DNA of 64,000 nucleotides from Comamonadaceae bacterium ALPHA2B. GTDB lineage: Bacteria; Pseudomonadota; Gammaproteobacteria; Burkholderiales; Burkholderiaceae_C. How positions within the stretch are numbered: the first letter of the stretch is position 1; the number at the start of each line of letters is the position of its first letter. The translations under genes and the position numbers were made by a program. Location: assembly GCA_005503065.1 (NCBI GenBank), contig SCOE01000011.1, forward strand, positions 62,001-126,000. Direction: 5' to 3'. Below the pieces are notes generated by a model, which did no database searches, was not told the origin of the DNA, and saw only the letters and a program-made list of their open reading frames with translations. Positions 7,897 to 17,770 of the stretch are shown here, piece after piece.

Positions 7897-8688
7897 TCAA
7901 CGCGCGGAGGCGCCGCCGTCCACCGGGATGATCGCCCCCGTCATGTAGCTCGATGCAGAGGAAGCCAGCAACAGGGCCAGCCCCTTGATCTCCGAGGTGT
8001 CGGCGATGCGGCCGAGCGGGATGTGCGTGCGCATCCGTTCCGCCGACTCGGGCAGGCGCAGCCGCCCGCCGTTGATGCCGGTCGCGAAGGGGCCCGGCGC
8101 AATCGCGTTCACCAGGACGTTGTACGGTGCCAGTTCCATGGCTGCCTGGCGCACCAGGTTGTTGACTGCGGCTTTCGAGGTCACATAGGCGTAGCCCGAC
8201 AGGGGTTCGGCACGCATGCCGGCGATCGACGATGTCACGACGATGCGGCCCGCACGGCGGGGCTTCATGTGCCGGGCGGCCGCGCGGACCGTGGCCATCA
8301 CGCCATCGAGATTGATCCGCAGGACGTGGCTCCAGTGCGCCAGGTCGATGTTCTCCAGCTGCCCGGCCTCGACCACGAAACCCCTTCCGGCGCTGATGCC
8401 CGCGTTGGCGAACACGCAATCCAGGCCACCGTGCCGGACGACGATACCGTCGACAGCGGCGTCCACGGCATCGGCATGCGACACATCAAGGACCAGGCCT
8501 TCCGCGAGGGGATGAAGGGCGCGCAGACGCTCCACCTCGCCGGCGAGCGCCACCTCGTCGGCGTCGGCAAGCACGGTGCAGGCGCCGGCTTCCAGCATGG
8601 TTTCGGCCACCGCCAGCCCCAGACCACTGGCCGCGCCGGTCACGAGCACCGTGCGTTCCCGCAGGTCGAACAGCTCGGCCAGGCTCAT
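7897..8688 (-). CDS. Short-chain dehydrogenase/reductase (last gene of the LacI-controlled operon)
   Basis: Encodes 263 residues of a classical SDR. The coenzyme motif VTGAASGLGLAVAE is near residue 13, FANAGIS corresponds to the NNAG motif, the catalytic serine lies in VTSSIAG and the YVTSK motif gives Tyr and Lys. The C-terminal PVDGG is typical. An Asp follows the second beta strand (LADADE), which suggests NAD(H) preference. Its ATG overlaps the stop of the upstream SnoaL-like gene (ATGA), so they are translationally coupled. The substrate is unknown. Confidence 0.88.
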   Translation of the reverse strand: MSLAELFDLRERTVLVTGAASGLGLAVAETMLEAGACTVLADADEVALAGEVERLRALHPLAEGLVLDVSHADAVDAAVDGIVVRHGGLDCVFANAGISAGRGFVVEAGQLENIDLAHWSHVLRINLDGVMATVRAAARHMKPRRAGRIVVTSSIAGMRAEPLSGYAYVTSKAAVNNLVRQAAMELAPYNVLVNAIAPGPFATGINGGRLRLPESAERMRTHIPLGRIADTSEIKGLALLLASSASSYMTGAIIPVDGGASAR

Positions 8689-9194
8689 CGCGTGGCCTCC
8701 GCCTTGCGCATGGGCAACAGGTGGTCCCAGCGCTCCGCCGCCTCGATCATGTAGTGGACGGTGAGCACCACACGCTGGAACAACCATCGCCCCTCCAGCC
8801 GCACGTACTCGTCGTCGAAGCGGCCCACCACGTAGAGGCTCTTGCCCTGGCTCACGGGCCGGCCATCGAGGTAGCAGTGGCCCGTCGCCCGCTCGCCCTC
8901 CAGCTGGATCTCGTGCTGGTGCATGAACTGGCGTGCATGCTGCACCGGGAAAGTTTCGAAGAAGCGGCGGATCGCCTCGCGTCCCCGCACCTCCGGCCGA
9001 CCGTTGTAGACCACCGAGGCGTCCGGCGCAAAGAGCTCGTACAGACGCGTTCCTTCGTCCTCGTTCACGAGCTCGTGGTAGCGGGCGCGCAGCGTGCGGA
9101 TGGCCTCCATGCTCTCGAGGCGGTCGACGCGCTCCAGCAGCGATTTCATCCGGGCAGCGAGTTCTGCGCTGGACGCGGGTTCGGATGCAGCCAT
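8685..9194 (-). CDS. SnoaL-like/NTF2-fold protein
   Basis: Encodes 169 residues. The pattern fits the SnoaL_4/NTF2 fold: an N-terminal helix RTLRARYHELVNEDEG, then YELFAPDASVVYNGRPEVRGREAIRRFF, FMHQHEIQLEGERATGHCYLDG and a final YVRLEGRWLFQRVVLTVHYM. This group includes scytalone-dehydratase-like and ring-hydroxylating-dioxygenase-beta-like small proteins that act on cyclic ketones or phenols. The exact reaction is unknown. It lies between two SDRs: its stop overlaps the next start by four bases, and only one base separates its ATG from the preceding stop codon. Confidence 0.75.
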   Translation of the reverse strand: MAASEPASSAELAARMKSLLERVDRLESMEAIRTLRARYHELVNEDEGTRLYELFAPDASVVYNGRPEVRGREAIRRFFETFPVQHARQFMHQHEIQLEGERATGHCYLDGRPVSQGKSLYVVGRFDDEYVRLEGRWLFQRVVLTVHYMIEAAERWDHLLPMRKAEATR

Positions 9195-9195
9195 G

Positions 9196-10059
9196 TCATT
9201 CCTTGTTCGGTGGTGAAGGCAGCGGTGATGCCGCCGCGTCCGGATGCAGCGCCCGGTGGTCGTCGAGGATGGCGTGCATGCGCCGACGAACCGAGTCGCC
9301 GGTCTGCACATGGGGCACCACGTAGAAGCGTCGCGCCCGGATGGCGTCGAGGGTCATTGCCGCCACGTCCGTGGCGTCGATCGGCGACGCGGCCATGCCC
9401 AGGCGTACGCGCTCGCCGTAGGCCGAAGCCGGCGACACGGTATTCGCCAATTCGAACGGCCGGTTGCGCCCGGACTGATGGATCCCGGTCGGAAGCAGTG
9501 AGGGGCAGAGCACCGACACGCCGATGTCCGCGCCGGCCTGCTCGAGGTCGCGTGCCAGGCATTCGCTGAAGGCGACCACCGCATGCTTGGTCGCGCTGTA
9601 GACCGAAGACCCGGCCAGCGTGGCCAGCCCTGCGGCCGACGCGGTGTTGACGACGTGCGCGCGGGTCCTGCGGGCCAGCATGCGGGGTACGAAGCTGCGC
9701 ACCCCGTTGGCCACCCCTCGGACGTTGACGCTCCACAGCCATTGCCAGTCCTCGTCGGTGGCCGACCATGCAGGGCCAAGCACCGCGACCCCGGCGTTGT
9801 TGAACAGCCAATCCACCCCGCCGAAGCGCGCCTCGCACTCGCTGGCGAAGGCTTCGACCTGGTCGGCCTGGCCGACGTCGCCCGCGCGCGCCATCACGTC
9901 GACACCGAGCGACTCGGCCATCATGGCCGTCTGCGCCAGGGCGGCCGGCTCGATGTCGGTCAATGCCACCGCCATGCCCTCGCGGGCACAGGCCAGGGCG
10001 AGTTCGCGCCCGATGCCGCTGCCCGCGCCGGTGATCGCGGCTGCCGCAGGCGCGCTCAT
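9196..10059 (-). CDS. Short-chain dehydrogenase/reductase
   Basis: Encodes 287 residues. The N-terminus AAITGAGSGIGRELALAC holds the TGxxxGxG motif. NNAGVAVLG, NTASAAG and the catalytic SVYSATKHAVV follow. The second-strand TDIEP suggests NAD(H). The C-terminal 50 residues (ARRFYVVPHVQTGDSVRRRMHAIL) resemble SDRs with an extra helical tail. It starts on the last bases of the upstream Bug gene (ATGA overlap). Part of an uncharacterised catabolic operon. Confidence 0.87.
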   Translation of the reverse strand: MSAPAAAAITGAGSGIGRELALACAREGMAVALTDIEPAALAQTAMMAESLGVDVMARAGDVGQADQVEAFASECEARFGGVDWLFNNAGVAVLGPAWSATDEDWQWLWSVNVRGVANGVRSFVPRMLARRTRAHVVNTASAAGLATLAGSSVYSATKHAVVAFSECLARDLEQAGADIGVSVLCPSLLPTGIHQSGRNRPFELANTVSPASAYGERVRLGMAASPIDATDVAAMTLDAIRARRFYVVPHVQTGDSVRRRMHAILDDHRALHPDAAASPLPSPPNKE

Positions 10060-11024
10060 TCCAGCGTGATCCCGGATTCGCGCAGCACCGTGGTCCACTT
10101 CTTGGCCTCCGCCGCGACGTAGCGCTGGAACTCCGCGTGCGGCATGTCGATGGTGAAGCTCTCGACCGATTCCAGGCTGCGCTTGACCTCCGGGGACTTA
10201 AGCGTCTCGTCGACCGCGTCGGACAACTGTTGGACGATGGCCGCAGGCGTCCTGGCGGGGGCGAAAAGGCCGCCCCAGCTCAAGGCCTCCACACCGGGGT
10301 ATCCGGCTTCCGCCATCGTCGGCACCTCTGGCAACGTCGGCATCCGCTTGGACCGGGTCACGGCCAGCGCTGCGATCTTCCCGCTGCGGATCTGCGGCGC
10401 CGAGGTCTGGACGAAGTCGAACATCGCGTCCAGATTGCCGGCCACGAGGTCCACGAGTGCCGCGGAGCTCGACTTGTAGGGAATGTGCGTGAACCGAGCG
10501 CCGGTCTGGTTCTGAAGCAATTCCAGGCAGAGGTGACCCGAGGTTCCGTTGCCACCCGAGCCGAAATTGAGCTTTCCGGGATTGCTCTTGCCGTACGCCA
10601 CAAGATCGGCCACCGAGCGGATCTTCAGGTTCGGGTTGACGACCAGCACGTTCGAATTGCCGGACAGGCCGTGGATCGCCACGAAGTCCTTCACCGGGTC
10701 ATAGCGTACCGTCTTGTAGAGCGCGCTGTTGGTGCCCTGCGTCCCCTGGGTGCCGACCAGGAGCGTGTAGCCGTCGGGCGCAGCCCGCGCGACCACTTCG
10801 GCGCCCAGCGACCCGGCCACGCCCGCCCGGTTGTCGATGACGATCGGCTGTCCAAGCTTCGTGCTCAGGACGCGCGCGATCACCCGTGCCTGCTGGTCGA
10901 CCACGCTGCCCGCGGAGAAAGGCACGACGAGCGTGACGGGCGACTGCGGGTACGACTGCGCCCGCGCCAGGGGTGCGAGCACCGCGGCGCCCGCGGCCAG
11001 TGAGAAGTTGCGTCGGTTCATCAT
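10056..11024 (-). CDS. Bug/TctC-family periplasmic solute-binding protein
   Basis: Encodes 322 residues, the standard size of the Bug (TctC) family. The N-terminus MMNRRNFSLAAGAAVLAPLARAQ is a Tat-like or Sec export signal with cleavage after ARAQ. The mature part has YPQSPVTLVVPFSAGSVVDQ (the family's VPFxAGG region) and VIDNRAGVAGSLGAE. It should bind a small organic acid or related compound in the periplasm. There is no TctA/TctB membrane pair nearby, which is usual for Bug proteins in Bordetella and Comamonadaceae. It lies mid-operon, coupled to the SDR downstream by an ATGA overlap. Confidence 0.93.
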   Translation of the reverse strand: MMNRRNFSLAAGAAVLAPLARAQSYPQSPVTLVVPFSAGSVVDQQARVIARVLSTKLGQPIVIDNRAGVAGSLGAEVVARAAPDGYTLLVGTQGTQGTNSALYKTVRYDPVKDFVAIHGLSGNSNVLVVNPNLKIRSVADLVAYGKSNPGKLNFGSGGNGTSGHLCLELLQNQTGARFTHIPYKSSSAALVDLVAGNLDAMFDFVQTSAPQIRSGKIAALAVTRSKRMPTLPEVPTMAEAGYPGVEALSWGGLFAPARTPAAIVQQLSDAVDETLKSPEVKRSLESVESFTIDMPHAEFQRYVAAEAKKWTTVLRESGITLE

Positions 11025-11030
11025 GGGGAC

Positions 11031-11618
11031 TCAGCTCCGGGAAGGTTGAGATTCGGCAAAGACGTTGGGCCAGCGCTCGACATCGGCGAGCACGTCGGCC
11101 GCTTCGAGGTCCACCTCGAAGGTCTCGAGCAGCCGGCACACCAGCATGTAGTAGCCGATCGTCATCGTGATCTCCAGCATCTGCTGCTTGGTGACCCGGC
11201 CGGCCAGCTCGTCGGTCAGCGGCGGCGGTGCCTTGCAGTGCAGGACCACGGCCTCGGTGAAGCGCAGCACGAGCGCTTCGAGGTCGTCGAAGGCGTCGGC
11301 CCGCAAGCTGCCTGCGGGCGCATCCAGCGCGGCGGCGATCTTCGCGGCCGGCACGCCCACCTGGGCCGCCACGCGCCGGTGCTGGGTCAGCTCGTAGCTC
11401 GAGCCACAGAGCACGCCCACGCGGAGGATGACCAGCTCGCGCAGGACCGGGCTGAGGGAGGAACGGCGAAGAATCGCCGTTCCCAGCGTCAGGAAGCCCT
11501 CTGCAGCGGCGCCGCCGTGGGCCACCATCCGATAGATGTTCAGCGGCGGCCGGTCCTTGAGCAGGTCGCGGATCGCGGGCGAGGCTTGGGTGAGGTCGAA
11601 GTATGGAAGGCGTGCCAT
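11031..11618 (-). CDS. Carboxymuconolactone decarboxylase/AhpD-like protein
   Basis: Encodes 195 residues. The central region LSPVLRELVILRVGVLCGSSYELTQHRRVA matches the core helices of the carboxymuconolactone decarboxylase family, with one Cys and a YELxxH motif instead of the AhpD CxxC pair. That fits the decarboxylase branch more than the peroxidase-reductase branch. The FTEAVVLHCKAPPPLTDE and MLEITMTIGYYMLVCRLL helices are also typical. The distance to the flanking Bug genes is only a few bases. The substrate is unknown. Confidence 0.82.
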   Translation of the reverse strand: MARLPYFDLTQASPAIRDLLKDRPPLNIYRMVAHGGAAAEGFLTLGTAILRRSSLSPVLRELVILRVGVLCGSSYELTQHRRVAAQVGVPAAKIAAALDAPAGSLRADAFDDLEALVLRFTEAVVLHCKAPPPLTDELAGRVTKQQMLEITMTIGYYMLVCRLLETFEVDLEAADVLADVERWPNVFAESQPSRS

Positions 11619-11622
11619 GAGG

Positions 11623-12612
11623 TCAGTCCAGATGAATGCCGGCCTTGCGAATGACATCGCGCCAGCGGAGGGTTTCTTCGGATGCGAACGCCGCCAAGGC
11701 CTCGGCGCTGCCGCCTTGCGGTTCCACGGACAGCTCGCGCATCCGGTCGGCCACCGCCGGCGTGGCGAGTGCCCGGTTCATCTCGACGTTGAGCCGTTGC
11801 AGGATGGCCGGCGGCGTGCCCGCCGGCGCCCACAGCGCGCCCCACGCGGCAACCTCGCAACCGCGCAGCCCGAGTTCCTCGAAGGTGGGGACATCCGGCA
11901 GCAGCGGCAACCGTTGGCGCGCCGTGACGGCCAGCGGGCGCAGCTTGCCGGCACGGATGTGCGCCAGCGTCCCTGCGACGTTGTCGAACAGGGCCGGCAC
12001 CTGGCCACCCAGCACGTCGGTGGCAGCAGGCGCGCTGCCCTTGTACGGCACATGGACGAAGCGCACGCTCGCCGCCTGTTGCATCAGGACCAGGGACAGG
12101 TGGCCGCTGGTGGCGTTGCCTGGCGTGGCCACGGGGATGCTGTCGGGCGCCTTCCTGGTCAACGCAACAAGCCCCTGCAGGTCCGTGGCCGCGAAGTCGG
12201 GATGCACGCACAGGACGTTGTAGACCTTGCCGTCGAGCGCGATGGGCGCGAAGTCCTTCACCGGGTCGTAGTCGAGCCTGGGATACAGGCTGACGTTCAT
12301 GGCATGCGTCGCGTTGCTGCCGTAGAACAGCGTGTAGCCGTCGGGCGCGCTGCGGGCCGCTGCGGCCGCAGCGATGTTCCCGGACGCGCCGGGCCGGTTG
12401 TCGACGACCACGGGCTTGCCCAGTTGCCGGCCCAACTGGTCGGCCAGGCGCCTTGCGGACTGGTCGGCCGAGCCACCGGCAGGGAACCCGACGATCATCC
12501 GCAGGGGCCGGTCCGGGTAGCTCTCGGAAGCGGCGAAGGCGCCGCGCAGCCCGAGCGCCTGCAACACTCCGGCCGCCAGAAGATGTCGACGGGCGATGGA
12601 AGGGACCGGCAT
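11623..12612 (-). CDS. Bug/TctC-family periplasmic solute-binding protein
   Basis: Encodes 329 residues with an export signal (ARRHLLAAGVLQALGLRGAFA) and the family motifs YPDRPLRMIVGFPAGGSADQ and VVDNRPGASGNIAAAA. It is clearly different from the other Bug protein of this operon, so the pair may bind different substrates or isomers. It lies directly between the first SDR and the carboxymuconolactone-decarboxylase-like gene, 4 and 8 bases away, and is almost certainly cotranscribed. Confidence 0.93.
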   Translation of the reverse strand: MPVPSIARRHLLAAGVLQALGLRGAFAASESYPDRPLRMIVGFPAGGSADQSARRLADQLGRQLGKPVVVDNRPGASGNIAAAAAARSAPDGYTLFYGSNATHAMNVSLYPRLDYDPVKDFAPIALDGKVYNVLCVHPDFAATDLQGLVALTRKAPDSIPVATPGNATSGHLSLVLMQQAASVRFVHVPYKGSAPAATDVLGGQVPALFDNVAGTLAHIRAGKLRPLAVTARQRLPLLPDVPTFEELGLRGCEVAAWGALWAPAGTPPAILQRLNVEMNRALATPAVADRMRELSVEPQGGSAEALAAFASEETLRWRDVIRKAGIHLD

Positions 12613-12620
12613 GTCGGCGC

Positions 12621-13469
12621 CTAGGTACGGGCGATACCGCCGGTCAGGCCGCCGTCGACCACCAGGGCGTGCGCGTTGACATAGGACGACTCGTTCGACA
12701 CCAGGAAGAGCGCGGCATGGGCGACTTCCCAGCCGGTGCCCTGTCGTGCGAAGGGAAGCGACATGGCGAGCCGGTCCGCCCGCCTCTTCGTTGCGGCGCG
12801 GCCGATGGGCGTGTCCATCAAGCCCGGCAGAAGGCTGTTGCAGCGCACGCCCTTGTCCTGCCCCGCCATCGCGATGGACCGGGCCAGCGCCACCTGCGCC
12901 GCCTTGGTCGTCTCGTAGGCGGGATTGCGGCTGGAATTGCGCAGCGCCGCGATCGACGACAGGAGCACGATCGAGCCGCCCGGTGCCATGTGCCTCAAGG
13001 CCTGCTGGCCGAACAGCATGCAGGACCGCACGTTGGTCGCGTGCTCACGATCCCAGGCTTCGGCGTTCTGCAGGTCCAGCGACAGGCCGCTGGCGACGCC
13101 CACCACCATCACGAGGCCGTCCAGGCCGCCCATCCTGTCGCAGGCCGCCTGAACGAGGCGGGGAATCGCATCTGCATCCGCCACATCGCCCACCTCGGCA
13201 TGCGCCGTGCCGCCCGCACGCCGCACCAGCTCGCAGGTGGTCGCAAGAGCGCCGGCGTTGATGTCGACGCAGGTCAGCGTCGCACCCTCGTGGGCGAACA
13301 GGATCGAGATCGCCCGACCGTTGCCGACGGGCGGTTGGGGGTCGTCGATCTCCCGCTGCCCCGCTCCGACCACGAGGATCCTGCGCCCCTCGAGGCGCCC
13401 GGCGGAAGGCCGGAGCTGGCCGAGCGCTTCAGGAAAGAGCTGGGCTCCCGGGTCGATGGCTGTCGGCAT
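12621..13469 (-). CDS. Short-chain dehydrogenase/reductase with an enlarged glycine loop (first gene of the operon)
   Basis: Encodes 282 residues from the ATG at 13469, which has an AGGAG site 8 bases before it. The dinucleotide loop is unusual: VVGAG is followed by about ten extra residues (QREIDDPQPP) before VGNGRAISI, so the TGxxxGxG spacing is stretched. The second-strand Asp (CVDIN), the SSIAAL serine and the YETTK catalytic pair are normal, and VVDGGLTGG ends the protein. It is the promoter-proximal gene, divergent from the LacI regulator. Confidence 0.86.
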   Translation of the reverse strand: MPTAIDPGAQLFPEALGQLRPSAGRLEGRRILVVGAGQREIDDPQPPVGNGRAISILFAHEGATLTCVDINAGALATTCELVRRAGGTAHAEVGDVADADAIPRLVQAACDRMGGLDGLVMVVGVASGLSLDLQNAEAWDREHATNVRSCMLFGQQALRHMAPGGSIVLLSSIAALRNSSRNPAYETTKAAQVALARSIAMAGQDKGVRCNSLLPGLMDTPIGRAATKRRADRLAMSLPFARQGTGWEVAHAALFLVSNESSYVNAHALVVDGGLTGGIART

Positions 13470-13539
13470 GGGTCGTGTCTCCTGCGGCGGGCGGTGTCGC
13501 TGCTCTCGCCGGTGTTGTCGAATACGCTGATGCTCGTAA

Positions 13540-13621
13540 ACTGGAAACGTTTCCGACATGGTGGTTACCCTTGCCTCGTGTCACCTAGGATTCAGCCCCA
13601 ACACCGAGCGAACTGGAAACG
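13540..13621. promoter_or_regulatory. Probable LacI-family operators in the divergent promoter region
   Basis: A perfect 12-bp palindrome GGAAACGTTTCC lies at 13543-13554, inside ACTGGAAACG (13540-13549). The same ACTGGAAACG recurs at 13612-13621, just before the lacI-type start codon. A central CG in an inverted repeat is characteristic of LacI/GalR-family operators. Two sites 72 bases apart could allow looping and joint control of the regulator and the seven-gene operon. Confidence 0.75.
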
Positions 13622-13628
13622 AACCCAA

Positions 13629-14648
13629 ATGACGTCCAACAAGGCCAAGGTCGACCTGCGCGACGTGGCGCGCCTGGCCGGCGTGTCGCTGGGCAGCGCA
13701 TCGCGTGCGATCAACGGCGCAGGCGCGTCACAAGCTGTGCAGCAGAAGGTCGAGCAGGCCGCTGCCCAGCTCGGTTACCGGCCCAATCACGCAGCGCAGT
13801 CGCTGCGATCACGCCTCAGCCGCACGCTGGGCTGCCTGTTGCCGGACATCGCCAATCCGCTCTATGCCCAGGTGTTCCGCGCGCTCGAGGACGAATTGCT
13901 GGGGGTGGGCTACCTGCCGCTGCTGGCCAATGGCGCGAACGACGAGGATCGCGAAGTTCGGGCCCTTTCGATGTTCACGCACCGCGGCATGGATGGTGTG
14001 ATCCTGGCGCCGGGCAACGAGCGCAGCGCCAGGCTGGCCGACGCCCTGAAGGCGCTGCCCATGCCCGCCGTCATCTTCGACCGGGAACTTCCCGGCCAGC
14101 ACGACAGCGTGCTCATCGACCACGCCGCAGGGGTCCGCGGGGCGGTCGAGCGGCTCATGCAGTTCGGACACAGGCGCATCGCGCTGGCCGTTTGGCAAGG
14201 GGACACGCGCCCGGTCAGGCGAAGAATCCAGGGCTACCGAGCCGCGTTCACCGGTGCGGGCCTGGCCGTGCCGGACCTCGTGGTGCAGGCCGAGAACGTC
14301 ACCGCCTCGGCGTTCGCCGAAATCAGCGGGCTGCTGGCCCGGCCCCACTCACCCACGGCGCTCATCGTCCAGGGCACGCACATGCTCACCAGCGCCTTGC
14401 GCGCGGTGGCAGCGCGCGGCTTGCGGATGCCGGAAGACATTTCCATCATCGCCATCGGCGACACCCCGTTCGCGCGCGAGCACGATCCCGCCGTCTCCGT
14501 TCTCACGATCGACATGCAGGTGGCCGCACGCCATCTCGTGTCGCTCGTGCTCAGCCGCATCAACGAGCCCTCGCTCCCGGCCCGGCGGGAACGCGTGGAC
14601 CTGCGCTACGAGCACCGGGGTTCGGTGGTTGGATCAAGCCGGCGCTAG
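13629..14648 (+). CDS. LacI-family transcriptional regulator
   Basis: Encodes 339 residues. The N-terminal helix-turn-helix VDLRDVARLAGVSLGSASRAINGAG is followed by the hinge-helix region LGYRPNHAAQSLRSRLSRTLGCLLPDI. The sugar-binding-protein-like core contains PAVIFDRELPG, LIDHAAGVRGAVE and a final IAIGDTPFAREHDPAVSVLTIDMQ. It most likely represses the divergent SDR/Bug operon and itself. The inducer is unknown, possibly a carboxylic acid rather than a sugar given the operon content. The ATG at 13629 is chosen because the DNA-binding domain starts there. Confidence 0.93.
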   Translation: MTSNKAKVDLRDVARLAGVSLGSASRAINGAGASQAVQQKVEQAAAQLGYRPNHAAQSLRSRLSRTLGCLLPDIANPLYAQVFRALEDELLGVGYLPLLANGANDEDREVRALSMFTHRGMDGVILAPGNERSARLADALKALPMPAVIFDRELPGQHDSVLIDHAAGVRGAVERLMQFGHRRIALAVWQGDTRPVRRRIQGYRAAFTGAGLAVPDLVVQAENVTASAFAEISGLLARPHSPTALIVQGTHMLTSALRAVAARGLRMPEDISIIAIGDTPFAREHDPAVSVLTIDMQVAARHLVSLVLSRINEPSLPARRERVDLRYEHRGSVVGSSRR

Positions 14649-14802: not shown

Positions 14803-15714
14803 TCAACCAGCGCGCTCTGCACGCGGAGTTCTTGCGAACTCGCTTGCGAAGTCGAGAAATCGCCGTGCGGCCATCGAAGGCGTGCGGTGCGCCTGGAACA
14901 CGACACTCACATCCCGGCGCACCACCGGCGCCCGGATGCGGCACACCGAGAGCCCTGAGAAGTAGGGTTCGCATGCGATCTGGCGCGGGGCGATCGTGCT
15001 GGTAACACCCTGGGAAGTCAAAGCCAGGGCAGTCGTCAGGAGACCGACCTCATGGGAAACCTGCAGCGAAATGCCGGCGGCAAGCGTCGTCTTGTCGATG
15101 ATCTCCCTGATGCCATAACCGGGGCGAGTGAGCGCCACTGGAATGTCCTTCAGGCGCTTCCAGCTCACATGATCGGCTTGGAGGCTGGGCTTCGCCGAAG
15201 GCATGACAAGGCACAGCTGGTCTTCCAGCACGCGGTGCTGCTTCAATTCCGTGTCGTCGCGGCCGAGGAACCCGAAGCCAATGTCGGCCTGGCCCGAAGC
15301 CAGCGTCGCGGTGAACTGCTCGGGCGTCACGTCGATGACATCGACATGGACATCCTTGTGCGCCGCAACGAAGCCTGCAATGAGGCTCGGCAGAAGCGTC
15401 TGCGCCAGCGTGGGCGTCGTCACGATGGAGAGCCTGCCACCACGCGCATTGGCGTGCCGGAACATGTTTTCCATGTGCCGGCCGTCCCGAAGCATGCGTT
15501 CGGCAATCGGCGCAAGCTCGACCGCCGCGAGAGTTGGCACCAGCGAACGCGTGGTTCGGTCGAACAGCGGTGCGCCGACCGATTCCTCCAACTGCTTGAG
15601 GCTCATGCTGACCGCCGACTGCGTCATGTGCAACTGCTCGGCGGCCAGGGCAATCTTTCTTCGGTGGAACACCTCAAGAAAACAGCTGAGTTGCCGTGGC
15701 TTGATTCTTGTCAT
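14803..15714 (-). CDS. LysR-family transcriptional regulator
   Basis: Encodes 303 residues from the ATG at 15714; a TTG one codon earlier also exists. The N-terminal winged helix is RQLSCFLEVFHRRKIALAAEQLHMTQSAVSMSLKQLEES, and the effector domain contains ATLASGQADIGFGFLG. It is divergent from the amidohydrolase/Bug pair, so it probably controls their expression in response to the aromatic acid they handle. The 86-base gap contains LysR-type palindromes. Confidence 0.93.
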   Translation of the reverse strand: MTRIKPRQLSCFLEVFHRRKIALAAEQLHMTQSAVSMSLKQLEESVGAPLFDRTTRSLVPTLAAVELAPIAERMLRDGRHMENMFRHANARGGRLSIVTTPTLAQTLLPSLIAGFVAAHKDVHVDVIDVTPEQFTATLASGQADIGFGFLGRDDTELKQHRVLEDQLCLVMPSAKPSLQADHVSWKRLKDIPVALTRPGYGIREIIDKTTLAAGISLQVSHEVGLLTTALALTSQGVTSTIAPRQIACEPYFSGLSVCRIRAPVVRRDVSVVFQAHRTPSMAARRFLDFASEFARTPRAERAG

Positions 15715-15715
15715 C

Positions 15716-15747
15716 AATGTTCTTGAAGAAACATTCAGGAAATTGAA
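15716..15747. promoter_or_regulatory. Probable LysR binding sites between lysR and the amidohydrolase gene
   Basis: AATGTT (15716-15721) and AACATT (15730-15735) form an inverted repeat. A second dyad, TTCA (15734-15737) and TGAA (15744-15747), overlaps it and fits the T-N11-A rule for LysR boxes. The position, just upstream of both divergent starts, supports autoregulation and activation. Confidence 0.55.
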
Positions 15748-15800: not shown

Positions 15801-16796
15801 ATGAGACTCATCACGCTCGAAGAGCACATCACGACCCCCATGCACAAGGAAGCATCGTTCGATCCGGTACGCCAGACCTGGTACGCCGCACGCAGTGCCC
15901 ACGTGGGCCATGACATCGAGAAGGAATTGCTCGACCTTGGCCAAAGCCGCCTTGCCAACATGGATGCGACGGGAATCAGCCTGCAGGTCCTGTCGCTGAC
16001 GACACCCGGGTGCCAGGCATTTCGCGGCGACCTCGCAATCTCCATGGCCAGGGACGCGAACGACCGGATGGGCGCTGCGGTGGCCGCGCACCCCGAGCGC
16101 TTCCGCGCGTTCGCCGCCCTGCCCACCGCGGAGATGCCCGCGGCCCTCTCGGAGTTCGAGGCCCGGCTCGACCAGGGATTTGTCGGCGCAATGATCAACG
16201 GGCATACGAGCGGCAGCTTTCTCGACGACAAGCGCTTCTGGCCGTTGTTCGAGCTGGCGCAGGCGCGTGACGTGCCCATCTACCTGCATCCCGGCGCACC
16301 CCACCCCGGGCTGATGGGAAGCTACTTCAACGGCTACGAGGACCTGGCCCGCCCGGCCTGGGGCTTCGCGATGGATGCGAGCATGCATTTCCTGCGGATG
16401 CTCTTCGGCGGCGTCTTCGACGAATTTCCGCGACTGCGGATCATCCTGGGGCACCTGGGCGAGGGCCTGCCCTTCGGTTTCGATCGGATGGTGGATCACA
16501 CGCCCTACGTGGTCAGCCGCCGTGGCCTCAGGAAGCGCCCCCGCGACTGCTTCCGCGAGAACCTCGTGATCACCACGAGCGGTGCTTTCTCCGCACCGGC
16601 TTTCCGGTGCGCGCTCGACGTCATGGGCGAGGACAACATCCTCTTCTCGGTGGACTGGCCCTACGAGTCCAACGCGGTCGGCACCCGGTTCTTCGACGCC
16701 CTCGATCTGCCCCACGCCCTGCGCCGGAAGCTCGCCTGGAAGAACGCTGCGCAGGTGCTCGGCCTGGACATTGCCGAAGTGGCGCATTCGACATGA
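15801..16796 (+). CDS. Amidohydrolase-2 family protein (resorcylate/dihydroxybenzoate decarboxylase type)
   Basis: Encodes 331 residues with AGGAGAC before the ATG. The metal-site pattern is that of the amidohydrolase-2 decarboxylases: E7 and H9 in LEEHI, H163 in IYLHPG, H218 in LGHLGEG and D285 in FSVDWPYES. In gamma-resorcylate decarboxylase the matching residues are E8, H10, H164 and D287, known from the family. It probably decarboxylates (or hydrates) a hydroxylated aromatic acid in the cytoplasm. The next gene starts on its stop codon and encodes a Bug protein, which could deliver the substrate. Another non-oxidative aromatic decarboxylase or a lactonase of the same fold is possible. Confidence 0.85.
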   Translation: MRLITLEEHITTPMHKEASFDPVRQTWYAARSAHVGHDIEKELLDLGQSRLANMDATGISLQVLSLTTPGCQAFRGDLAISMARDANDRMGAAVAAHPERFRAFAALPTAEMPAALSEFEARLDQGFVGAMINGHTSGSFLDDKRFWPLFELAQARDVPIYLHPGAPHPGLMGSYFNGYEDLARPAWGFAMDASMHFLRMLFGGVFDEFPRLRIILGHLGEGLPFGFDRMVDHTPYVVSRRGLRKRPRDCFRENLVITTSGAFSAPAFRCALDVMGEDNILFSVDWPYESNAVGTRFFDALDLPHALRRKLAWKNAAQVLGLDIAEVAHST

Positions 16797-17770
16797 ACCG
16801 GCGCAACTTCCTCCAGGCAGGAGCGCTTGGCGCATGCTCGGCCTTCGACGCGGCCGTACGCGCCGAAAGCTATCCGTCCAGGCCCGTGCAGATCGTGGTG
16901 CCGTTTCCGCCCGGCGGCACCAACGATCTGCTCGCACGCATGATCGCCCAGAGTCTCGGCGAACAGACGGGCGGCAGCTTCGTGGTCGACAACCGCGCAG
17001 GTGGCGCGGCGGGCTCCGTCGGTGCGCAGGCGGTGGCAGTCGCCAGGGCCGATGGGTACACGCTTCTGCTGGGCAACACGGCCAGCCTGGCGATCAACCA
17101 GAGCGTCTATCCCAACCTGCGCTACGACCCGCAGCGCGACTTCGAGCCGATCAGCGTGATTGGCAGTTCATCGCTGGTGCTGGTCGTGAACAGCAAGGTG
17201 CCCGCCAGGAACGTGGCGGAACTGGTGCAATTGCTGCGCACGTCGCCAGACAGGTACTCTTACGCCTCCGCAGGTGCGGGCTCGCCCCTTCATCTGGCAG
17301 GTGAGCTGTTCAAGTACCGCACCGGGACCGAGATGCTTCATGTTCCCTATCGAGGTACCGCGCCGGCCTACACCGACCTCCTGTCCGGCCGCATCCCGGT
17401 GATGTTCGACAACACCACCACCGCCGTTCAGCACGCCCGGGCGGGCACGATCCGGGCGCTGGCGGTGACAGGCGCGCAGCGCAGCGCGCTGTTCCCTGAG
17501 GTGCCGACCCTCGCGGAAGCCGGACTCAAGGACACCGAAATCCTCGTGTGGTTTGGCCTGGTGGCGCCCAGGTCCACGGATGCGACCATCACAGGGCGAC
17601 TTTCGAAAGCCGTTGCGTCAAGCGTGAAAGACCCTGAAACGCGGCGGCGGCTTCTTGAGTTCGACATCGAGCCCTGGGGAAGCACCCCCGAGGACATGCG
17701 TCGGTTCATGGCGAGCGAGTCGGCGAAGTGGAAGGCGGTGGTGCAGCGATCGAACATCCGCCTCGAGTAG
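16793..17770 (+). CDS. Bug/TctC-family periplasmic solute-binding protein
   Basis: Encodes 325 residues. The N-terminus MNRRNFLQAGALGACSAFDAAVRA is a Tat-type signal (RRNFLQ). Family motifs: YPSRPVQIVVPFPPGGTNDL and VVDNRAGGAAGSVGAQ. It overlaps the amidohydrolase stop (ATGA), so the two products are made together. The third Bug gene in the window; no tctAB partner is present. Confidence 0.93.
   Translation: MNRRNFLQAGALGACSAFDAAVRAESYPSRPVQIVVPFPPGGTNDLLARMIAQSLGEQTGGSFVVDNRAGGAAGSVGAQAVAVARADGYTLLLGNTASLAINQSVYPNLRYDPQRDFEPISVIGSSSLVLVVNSKVPARNVAELVQLLRTSPDRYSYASAGAGSPLHLAGELFKYRTGTEMLHVPYRGTAPAYTDLLSGRIPVMFDNTTTAVQHARAGTIRALAVTGAQRSALFPEVPTLAEAGLKDTEILVWFGLVAPRSTDATITGRLSKAVASSVKDPETRRRLLEFDIEPWGSTPEDMRRFMASESAKWKAVVQRSNIRLE

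Follow-up and report, generated by a model that had tools for sequence, protein, structure and literature searches.

Comamonadaceae bacterium ALPHA2B carries, within a 64,000-nucleotide stretch of contig SCOE01000011.1 (the window, whose first letter is position 1), seven minus-strand genes that lie divergent to the gene of a LacI-family regulator. In operon order these encode a short-chain dehydrogenase with a long glycine loop, GAGQREIDDPQPPVGNGRA (SDR1, 12621–13469), a TctC-family periplasmic binding protein (BugA, 11623–12612), a carboxymuconolactone decarboxylase-family protein without a CxxC motif (CMD, 11031–11618), a second TctC-family binding protein (BugB, 10056–11024), a further short-chain dehydrogenase (SDR2, 9196–10059), a SnoaL-like protein of the NTF2 fold that is likely a lyase or dehydratase (8685–9194), and a third short-chain dehydrogenase (SDR3, 7897–8688). 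The corresponding Pfam families are adh_short, TctC (PF03401), CMD (PF02627), TctC (PF03401), adh_short (PF00106), SnoaL_4 (PF13577) and adh_short (PF13561). The regulator (plus strand, 13629–14648, 339 amino acids) matches LacI (PF00356) and Peripla_BP_3 (PF13377) above cut-off, and thus has the helix-turn-helix and the periplasmic-type ligand domain that define the LacI family. The genes are tightly packed: coordinates give gaps of 8 bp for SDR1/BugA, 4 bp for BugA/CMD, 6 bp for CMD/BugB and 1 bp for SDR2/SnoaL, with 4-bp overlaps for BugB/SDR2 and SnoaL/SDR3. Such spacing is compatible with one transcript, and the seven genes probably form a single one. An earlier note, made from the sequence alone, had described both this packing and the gene families, and the open reading frames (ORFs), the measured gaps and Pfam agree with it.

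The start of SDR1 is most likely at 13469 rather than at 13559, because the upstream start would place the operator described below inside the gene, called orthologues begin at the position equivalent to 13469, and a conserved GTCTCCT block (a minus-strand Shine-Dalgarno sequence) precedes that start. Pfam, NCBIfam and PDB comparisons of SDR1 used 12621–13472, one codon longer than the gene. Among the NCBIfam matches listed, none of the seven proteins reaches the cut-off of a model; the closest score was that of SDR2 against PRK06194 (289 bits, cut-off 308).

Between SDR1 and the regulator gene lies a perfect 12-bp palindrome, GGAAACGTTTCC (13543–13554, unstranded), 73 bp upstream of SDR1, which is presumably the main LacI operator. 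It has the features expected of a LacI regulon site, being even, centered on CG, located in the divergent region and kept in orthologues. Its twelve bases are identical in all seven genomes with the operon (our own and those termed G010, G014, G011, G012, G001 and G009 below), while the intergenic region has otherwise diverged. The palindrome occurs as a single exact copy in our own 6.0-Mb genome (6,000,488 bases), and a search with the 14-bp version TGGAAACGTTTCCR returned, within one mismatch, only this site, read on two strands. At up to two mismatches there were eight forward matches in total versus 19 for the reversed control pattern, so the two-mismatch matches carry no meaning; a wider LacI regulon in our own genome is therefore not supported. 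In the window alone, one operator match at up to two mismatches corresponds to chance level (shuffle mean 0.87), and the evidence for the operator is its conservation across genomes, not its rarity within the window. The divergent LacI with an operator between the two transcription directions, as proposed in the earlier note, is thus well founded. In G008, whose LacI is only 55% identical, TGAAACGTTTCA takes the place of GGAAACGTTTCC.

A degenerate second site, GGAAACGAACCC (13615–13626, unstranded), stands just before the LacI start, and the sequences of relatives suggest that it is autoregulatory: four of them (G011, G012, G001 and G009) have GGAAACGTATCC immediately ahead of the LacI start at the equivalent position. 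According to the accessible part of PMC4052901, LacI sites are even palindromes with a CG center, more than 75% of them are located 30–140 bp upstream, and over three quarters of local LacI regulators are autoregulated. The present arrangement resembles these local regulons in its even CG palindrome within 30–140 bp upstream and in the second site at the regulator gene. The distance between the two sites, counted on the sequences, is 72 bp in our own genome, 71 in G010 and 67 in G011, G012, G001 and G009, and since it varies in this way, fixed-phase looping between them is not supported. A search for inverted repeats with arms of at least 8 bases, a minimum that excludes the operator, gave nothing useful. 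We infer that LacI acts as a repressor at GGAAACGTTTCC.

Conservation of the locus was examined in a genus sample of 15 genomes including our own (G000), a family sample of 399 and an order sample of 399. The search for the same gene order that the earlier note had suggested found the full seven-gene order in 6 of the 15 genus genomes (our own, G010, G014, G011, G012 and G001), so the lack of a conserved order in relatives, which would have spoken against the proposed operon, was not observed. A seventh genome, G009, lacks only BugA, and SnoaL is present in 7/15. Identity to the window is about 88–94% in G010 and G014 and about 63–85% in G011, G012, G001 and G009; for LacI the values are 94% in the first two, 77–78% in the other four and 55% in G008. 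G008 contains only the part from LacI through SDR1, BugA and CMD, without SnoaL. The remaining seven genus genomes have no SnoaL and either CMD paralogues of at most 56% identity (G002, G007 and G013) or none (G003–G006). SnoaL matches were found in five genomes of the family sample, three of them of the genus, the others being G138 (66%) and G374 (31–33%); in the order sample, CMD at E 1e-25 matched our own genome only. A genome-contig scan returned four loci, the top one 52% identical. Pairwise dN/dS between our own genome and G010 is 0.06–0.15 over LacI and the seven genes (0.07 for LacI), and 0.17–0.44 against G011. These low values indicate purifying selection on the operon despite the absent neighbors described next, and those against G010 rule out a decaying operon.

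Next to the operon, each of the six genus relatives with SnoaL has a cluster of two NMO-family genes, a CaiB gene, an acyl-CoA dehydrogenase gene and a gene for a CoA ligase of the ADP-forming type. A second cluster, of beta-oxidation type, follows, in which an IclR regulator gene stands beside Bug, OB/ChsH2, thiolase, enoyl-CoA hydratase (ECH) and SDR genes; tblastn confirmed the genes of both clusters in all six. Both clusters lie behind SDR3 in G010 and G014 and on the LacI side in G011, G012, G001 and G009. Pfam and NCBIfam, run for the first cluster on its G011 genes and for the second on those of G010, revealed one 381-residue acyl-CoA dehydrogenase, the ADP-forming ligase, a BadH-like SDR and a ChsH2-type OB protein with the thiolase. 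Of ten genomes searched at E 1e-100, seven (G001, G009, G010, G011, G012, G014 and G138) have the thiolase orthologue and three (our own, G003 and G008) lack it. In the family sample, a thiolase search at E 1e-120 matched 7/399 genomes, of which four (G132, G264, G369 and G394) have no reported SnoaL match, their membership in the family sample searched for SnoaL being assumed. No GGAAACGTTTCC within two mismatches was found in six stretches around the relatives' IclR cluster (L064–L069).

The versions of the locus in G008 and G138 suggest how the operon arose. G138, which belongs to another genus, has BugB (70%), a broken SDR2 remnant, SnoaL (66%) and SDR3 (70%) in a row directly behind the IclR cluster; the remnant, flanked by BugB and SnoaL genes that are both intact, survives as fragments out of frame (L060:12399-12846). 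An acyl-CoA dehydrogenase match (81%) lies beyond IclR and runs off the end of the fetched 19.9-kb stretch, in which there was no LacI or CMD match and neither SDR1 nor BugA was a best match. These findings are most simply read as the joining of two modules into the present operon: module A, with LacI divergent to SDR1-BugA-CMD, as in G008, and module B, with BugB-SDR2-SnoaL-SDR3, as in G138. The reverse history, in which an older seven-gene operon split into halves, is a less simple alternative. Individual parts can be lost, since BugA is gone in G009 and SDR2 in G138. Overall, we consider it reasonably probable that the locus is a catabolic operon of composite make-up, repressed locally by LacI, in which modules A and B were joined into one transcription unit.

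This composite origin also bears on the two different Bug proteins, which the earlier note had singled out as notable. Two are indeed present, most likely because each of the joined modules brought its own Bug. Their co-occurrence is not remarkable in itself: our own genome has 115 TctC/Bug loci, among which 13 Bug pairs lie within 3 kb of each other versus 6.2 expected at random. Likewise, a Bug gene is found within 3 kb of 4 of the 8 LacI genes of this genome versus 10.8% of random points (binomial P 0.007), so neither LacI-Bug adjacency nor a Bug pair is odd here. LacI also stands next to a CMD-like gene at three loci, namely the operon, a gene fusion on contig C54 described below and contig C5. 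LacI, Bug and CMD genes thus recur together in this genome, and the operon is less surprising for it; module joining offers a simple explanation for operons with two Bugs. On C5 (L072:1502-2187), a TAGAAACGTTTCTA palindrome and a CMD-like gene (24% identical) are followed by the LacI gene, with a Bug gene about 2 kb further on.

To our knowledge, ligands have been identified for only a minority of Bug proteins. BugA and BugB both have the PF03401 domain and a ligand loop of the PFxAGGxxD type that define Bug/TctC proteins. The loop reads FPAGGSAD in 6 of 7 copies of BugA (the G008 copy was unmatched) and FSAGSVVD, with Ser in place of the second Gly, in 8/8 copies of BugB. Because the pocket loops differ, the two proteins are likely to bind different ligands. 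The best-scoring solved chains are BugD (2f5x) for BugA and a terephthalate-binding protein (8hka) for BugB. The latter match would suit an aromatic carboxylic acid as substrate, with the beta-oxidation cluster trimming its side chain or a ring-cleavage product. However, the ligand of a Bug protein cannot be read from its nearest solved structure, and in our alignment the TphC pocket positions named in the accessible text of PMC8556258 are replaced, Q150 by P in BugA and by G in BugB and N197 by F in BugB (N in BugA). The operon shares with orphan binding-protein operons of tripartite tricarboxylate transporters, such as tph with TphC as presented in the available part of the same paper, a Bug gene in a catabolic setting without transporter membrane genes in the operon; it differs in the LacI regulator, in the pocket residues and in having no terephthalate genes.

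Further evidence on an aromatic substrate comes from the CoA clusters. In G369, they lie near genes for a FAD_binding_3 protein, a glyoxalase-fold protein and an FAA hydrolase, a setting that suits an aromatic compound. The Bbs set for beta-oxidation of benzylsuccinate comprises a CaiB-type transferase, acyl-CoA dehydrogenase, ECH, SDR, OB protein and thiolase, and these enzyme types are present in the relatives' neighboring clusters. The thiolase resembles BbsB, yet far below the cut-off (217 of 750 bits), and the score for BbsA is likewise below it (20 of 250 bits). The clusters differ from the Bbs set also in that no benzylsuccinate synthase is among the annotated genes and that the ligase and thiolase orthologues are not in our own genome. 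Since the operon itself has neither a ring hydroxylase nor a ring-cleavage dioxygenase, we regard an aromatic carboxylic acid as an unlikely substrate, if one worth keeping in mind.

Of the enzymes of module A, SDR1 and CMD appear to be functionally connected. All three SDRs have the classical YxxxK pair in their translations (YETTK in SDR1, YSATK in SDR2 and YVTSK in SDR3). The glycine loop of SDR1 ends in GNGRA and is not new, as PDB 5jc8, a putative SDR, has the same ending. CMD has invariant LRE, I.R and YE...H motifs in an alignment of 15 sequences; YE...H is found in 17/17 CMD proteins and the CxxC redox motif in none of the 17 (first 200 residues), so an AhpD-type peroxidase role was rejected. 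Assignment as PcaC was also discarded, with no NCBIfam match at E 0.001 and no pca-type gene in the operon. The AlphaFold model of CMD (pLDDT 89) has the CMD/AhpD fold, and its matches include the debrominase Bmp8. Homologs of CMD and SDR1 are fused in one 472-residue protein on contig C54 of our own genome (L036:8862-10280), with a divergent LacI and a Bug gene beside it. This locus is similar to the operon in its divergent LacI, its CMD (56% identical) and SDR1 (53% identical) parts and the Bug that follows; it differs in that CMD and SDR form one polypeptide and in having neither module B nor GGAAACGTTTCC. The fusion suggests that SDR1 and CMD catalyze successive or coupled steps.

Related arrangements were seen at other loci. 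CMD-matching ORFs of 471–472 residues in a like setting occur in L034, L035, L041 and L042, the fusion having been checked by tblastn in L034 only. Burkholderiaceae bacterium 16 has a larger relative of the operon (L022:3721-12490), in which LacI is accompanied by SDR, Bug, AMP ligase, SDR, citrate-synthase-like, CMD, SDR and Bug genes, including two SDR1-type genes and two Bugs. Paralogous LacI-SDR-CMD-Bug-CMD modules with two different CMD genes are found at L037:6163-10527, L038, L039 and L040; they carry a GGTGAAACGTTTCACC palindrome, and TGAAACGTTTCA is present in L040.

For SnoaL in module B, the best solved chain by sequence is BaiE (E 2.5e-6). An AlphaFold model built from nine sequences (best pLDDT 83.5; three of five models failed, below 46) has an NTF2 fold near BaiE, with TM-scores of 0.73–0.75 to 4l8p and 4leh, and its nearest structures are the NTF2-like 2rfr, LinA, BaiE, LdpA and a putative scytalone dehydratase. 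In Comamonas testosteroni TA441, the SDRs SteA and SteB act at C12 and SteC is a SnoaL/NTF2 dehydratase in the removal of the 12-hydroxyl, as stated in the accessible part of PMC13101464. Both systems thus combine two SDRs with a SnoaL/NTF2 protein, here a putative dehydratase, that is structurally near BaiE, and since module B has the three enzyme types of SteA, SteB and SteC, an oxidize, reduce and dehydrate scheme is our preferred reading of module B. The likeness is one of enzyme type, and LacI control, CMD and two Bugs set the present operon apart.

One could go further and propose that the operon degrades a steroid, bile acid or other polycyclic alicyclic compound, with SDR2, SDR3 and SnoaL inverting and removing a ring hydroxyl and the neighboring CaiB, acyl-CoA dehydrogenase, NMO, ECH, SDR and thiolase performing Scd steps. 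In addition to BaiE and the Ste enzymes, the ChsH2-type OB protein with thiolase, NMO and CaiB of the relatives' clusters are in line with this, as is SteD, which according to the same portion of PMC13101464 resembles ScdK overall in an AlphaFold model, although the alignment of ScdK with SteD failed. We nevertheless find this quite improbable: the resemblance to ste/scd is again one of enzyme type, the relatives' clusters show one 381-residue acyl-CoA dehydrogenase and an ADP-forming ligase, the ligase and thiolase orthologues are missing from our own genome, and the neighbors of the G369 clusters suit an aromatic compound.

A sugar or sugar acid sensed by LacI, with the operon degrading a polyol or sugar lactone, would agree with the sugars sensed by most characterized LacI regulators in the accessible part of PMC4052901 and with SDR3, whose matches, below cut-off, include models and chains of gluconate 5-dehydrogenase and of polyol dehydrogenases. 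The targets here are SDR, CMD, SnoaL and Bug genes, in contrast to the carbohydrate genes of those local regulons, and the operon has no sugar kinase, isomerase, aldolase or sugar transporter. Moreover, CoA-type neighbors are present in 6/6 genus relatives with SnoaL, and of the LacI genes of our own genome, 4/8 are beside a Bug gene and three beside a CMD-like gene. A sugar-type substrate is thus very improbable.

Returning to the composite operon under a local repressor, its transport and chemistry may be pictured as follows. LacI would occupy GGAAACGTTTCC ahead of SDR1 and, weakly, the site at the start of its own gene; an effector, which could be the substrate or an early intermediate, would release it. 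The Bugs would bind the acid or acids in the periplasm. SDR1 would oxidize an alcohol, and CMD would act in the same series of steps, probably by decarboxylation or isomerization of a compound resembling a keto acid. SDR2 and SDR3 could interconvert hydroxyl and ketone and SnoaL eliminate water, like SteA, SteB and SteC of Comamonas, and the product would enter CoA-dependent beta-oxidation. Most likely, the operon serves as an upper pathway under local repression that acts on a cyclic carboxylic acid bearing a hydroxyl group, through alcohol oxidation, a decarboxylation-type step and dehydration. The earlier note had read the gene content as pointing to a cyclic or aromatic acid; an acid rather than a sugar fits, and cyclic or aromatic is plausible from the BadH-like SDR, the ChsH2-type OB protein with thiolase, CaiB and NMO of the relatives. 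The locus is best described as a LacI-linked Bug/SDR/CMD catabolic operon of composite origin, its substrate probably being a cyclic carboxylic acid.

Several observations weigh against this picture. The scan for promoters and terminators found nothing, with no promoter-like site in the divergent region. The dN/dS of CMD against G011 (0.44) is the highest of the set, and the nearest folds of its model are AhpD-type or uncharacterized proteins. The position of BaiE Asp35, which together with a His we take to be catalytic, is occupied by Asn44 in SnoaL (eight operon orthologues read, with a His nearby), so its catalytic residues or reaction probably differ from those of BaiE. SDR2 is not always needed, as it is broken in G138, and G369 has both CoA clusters with no reported SnoaL match. 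No CoA-cluster gene lies within the window, and searches of our own genome, which among the CoA-cluster genes covered the ligase and the thiolase, found no orthologue of either: the top ligase match is 40% identical, the top thiolase match by E-value 37% and a partial one 43%. With these orthologues missing, our own genome is the exception among the genomes with SnoaL.

It is tempting to see here an undescribed route by which a cyclic carboxylic acid with a hydroxyl group is degraded, with an SDR and a CxxC-less CMD as a paired oxidative decarboxylation unit that is fused in a paralogue, a LacI repressor responsive to a non-sugar acid, and two Bug modules joined ahead of a beta-oxidation cluster. 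We advance this only tentatively. A search of the open-access literature found no description of this operon, and the accessible part of PMC4996985 holds nothing on this gene set. One clear operator, the SDR-CMD fusion and the split versions in two relatives make it practical to look jointly for the ligand, for the effector of LacI and for the reaction that SDR and CMD carry out.

Beyond the LacI gene, the window continues with a neighboring unit whose LysR and amidohydrolase genes had no match in the fetched operon stretches of G011, G012, G001 and G009. Orthologues of its three genes adjoin the operon in G010 and G014: the LysR regulator (minus strand, 14803–15717; 92%), an Amidohydrolase_2 protein (plus strand, 15801–16796; 90%) and a third Bug protein (plus strand, 16793–17770; PF03401; 88%), whose gene overlaps that of the amidohydrolase by 4 bp.

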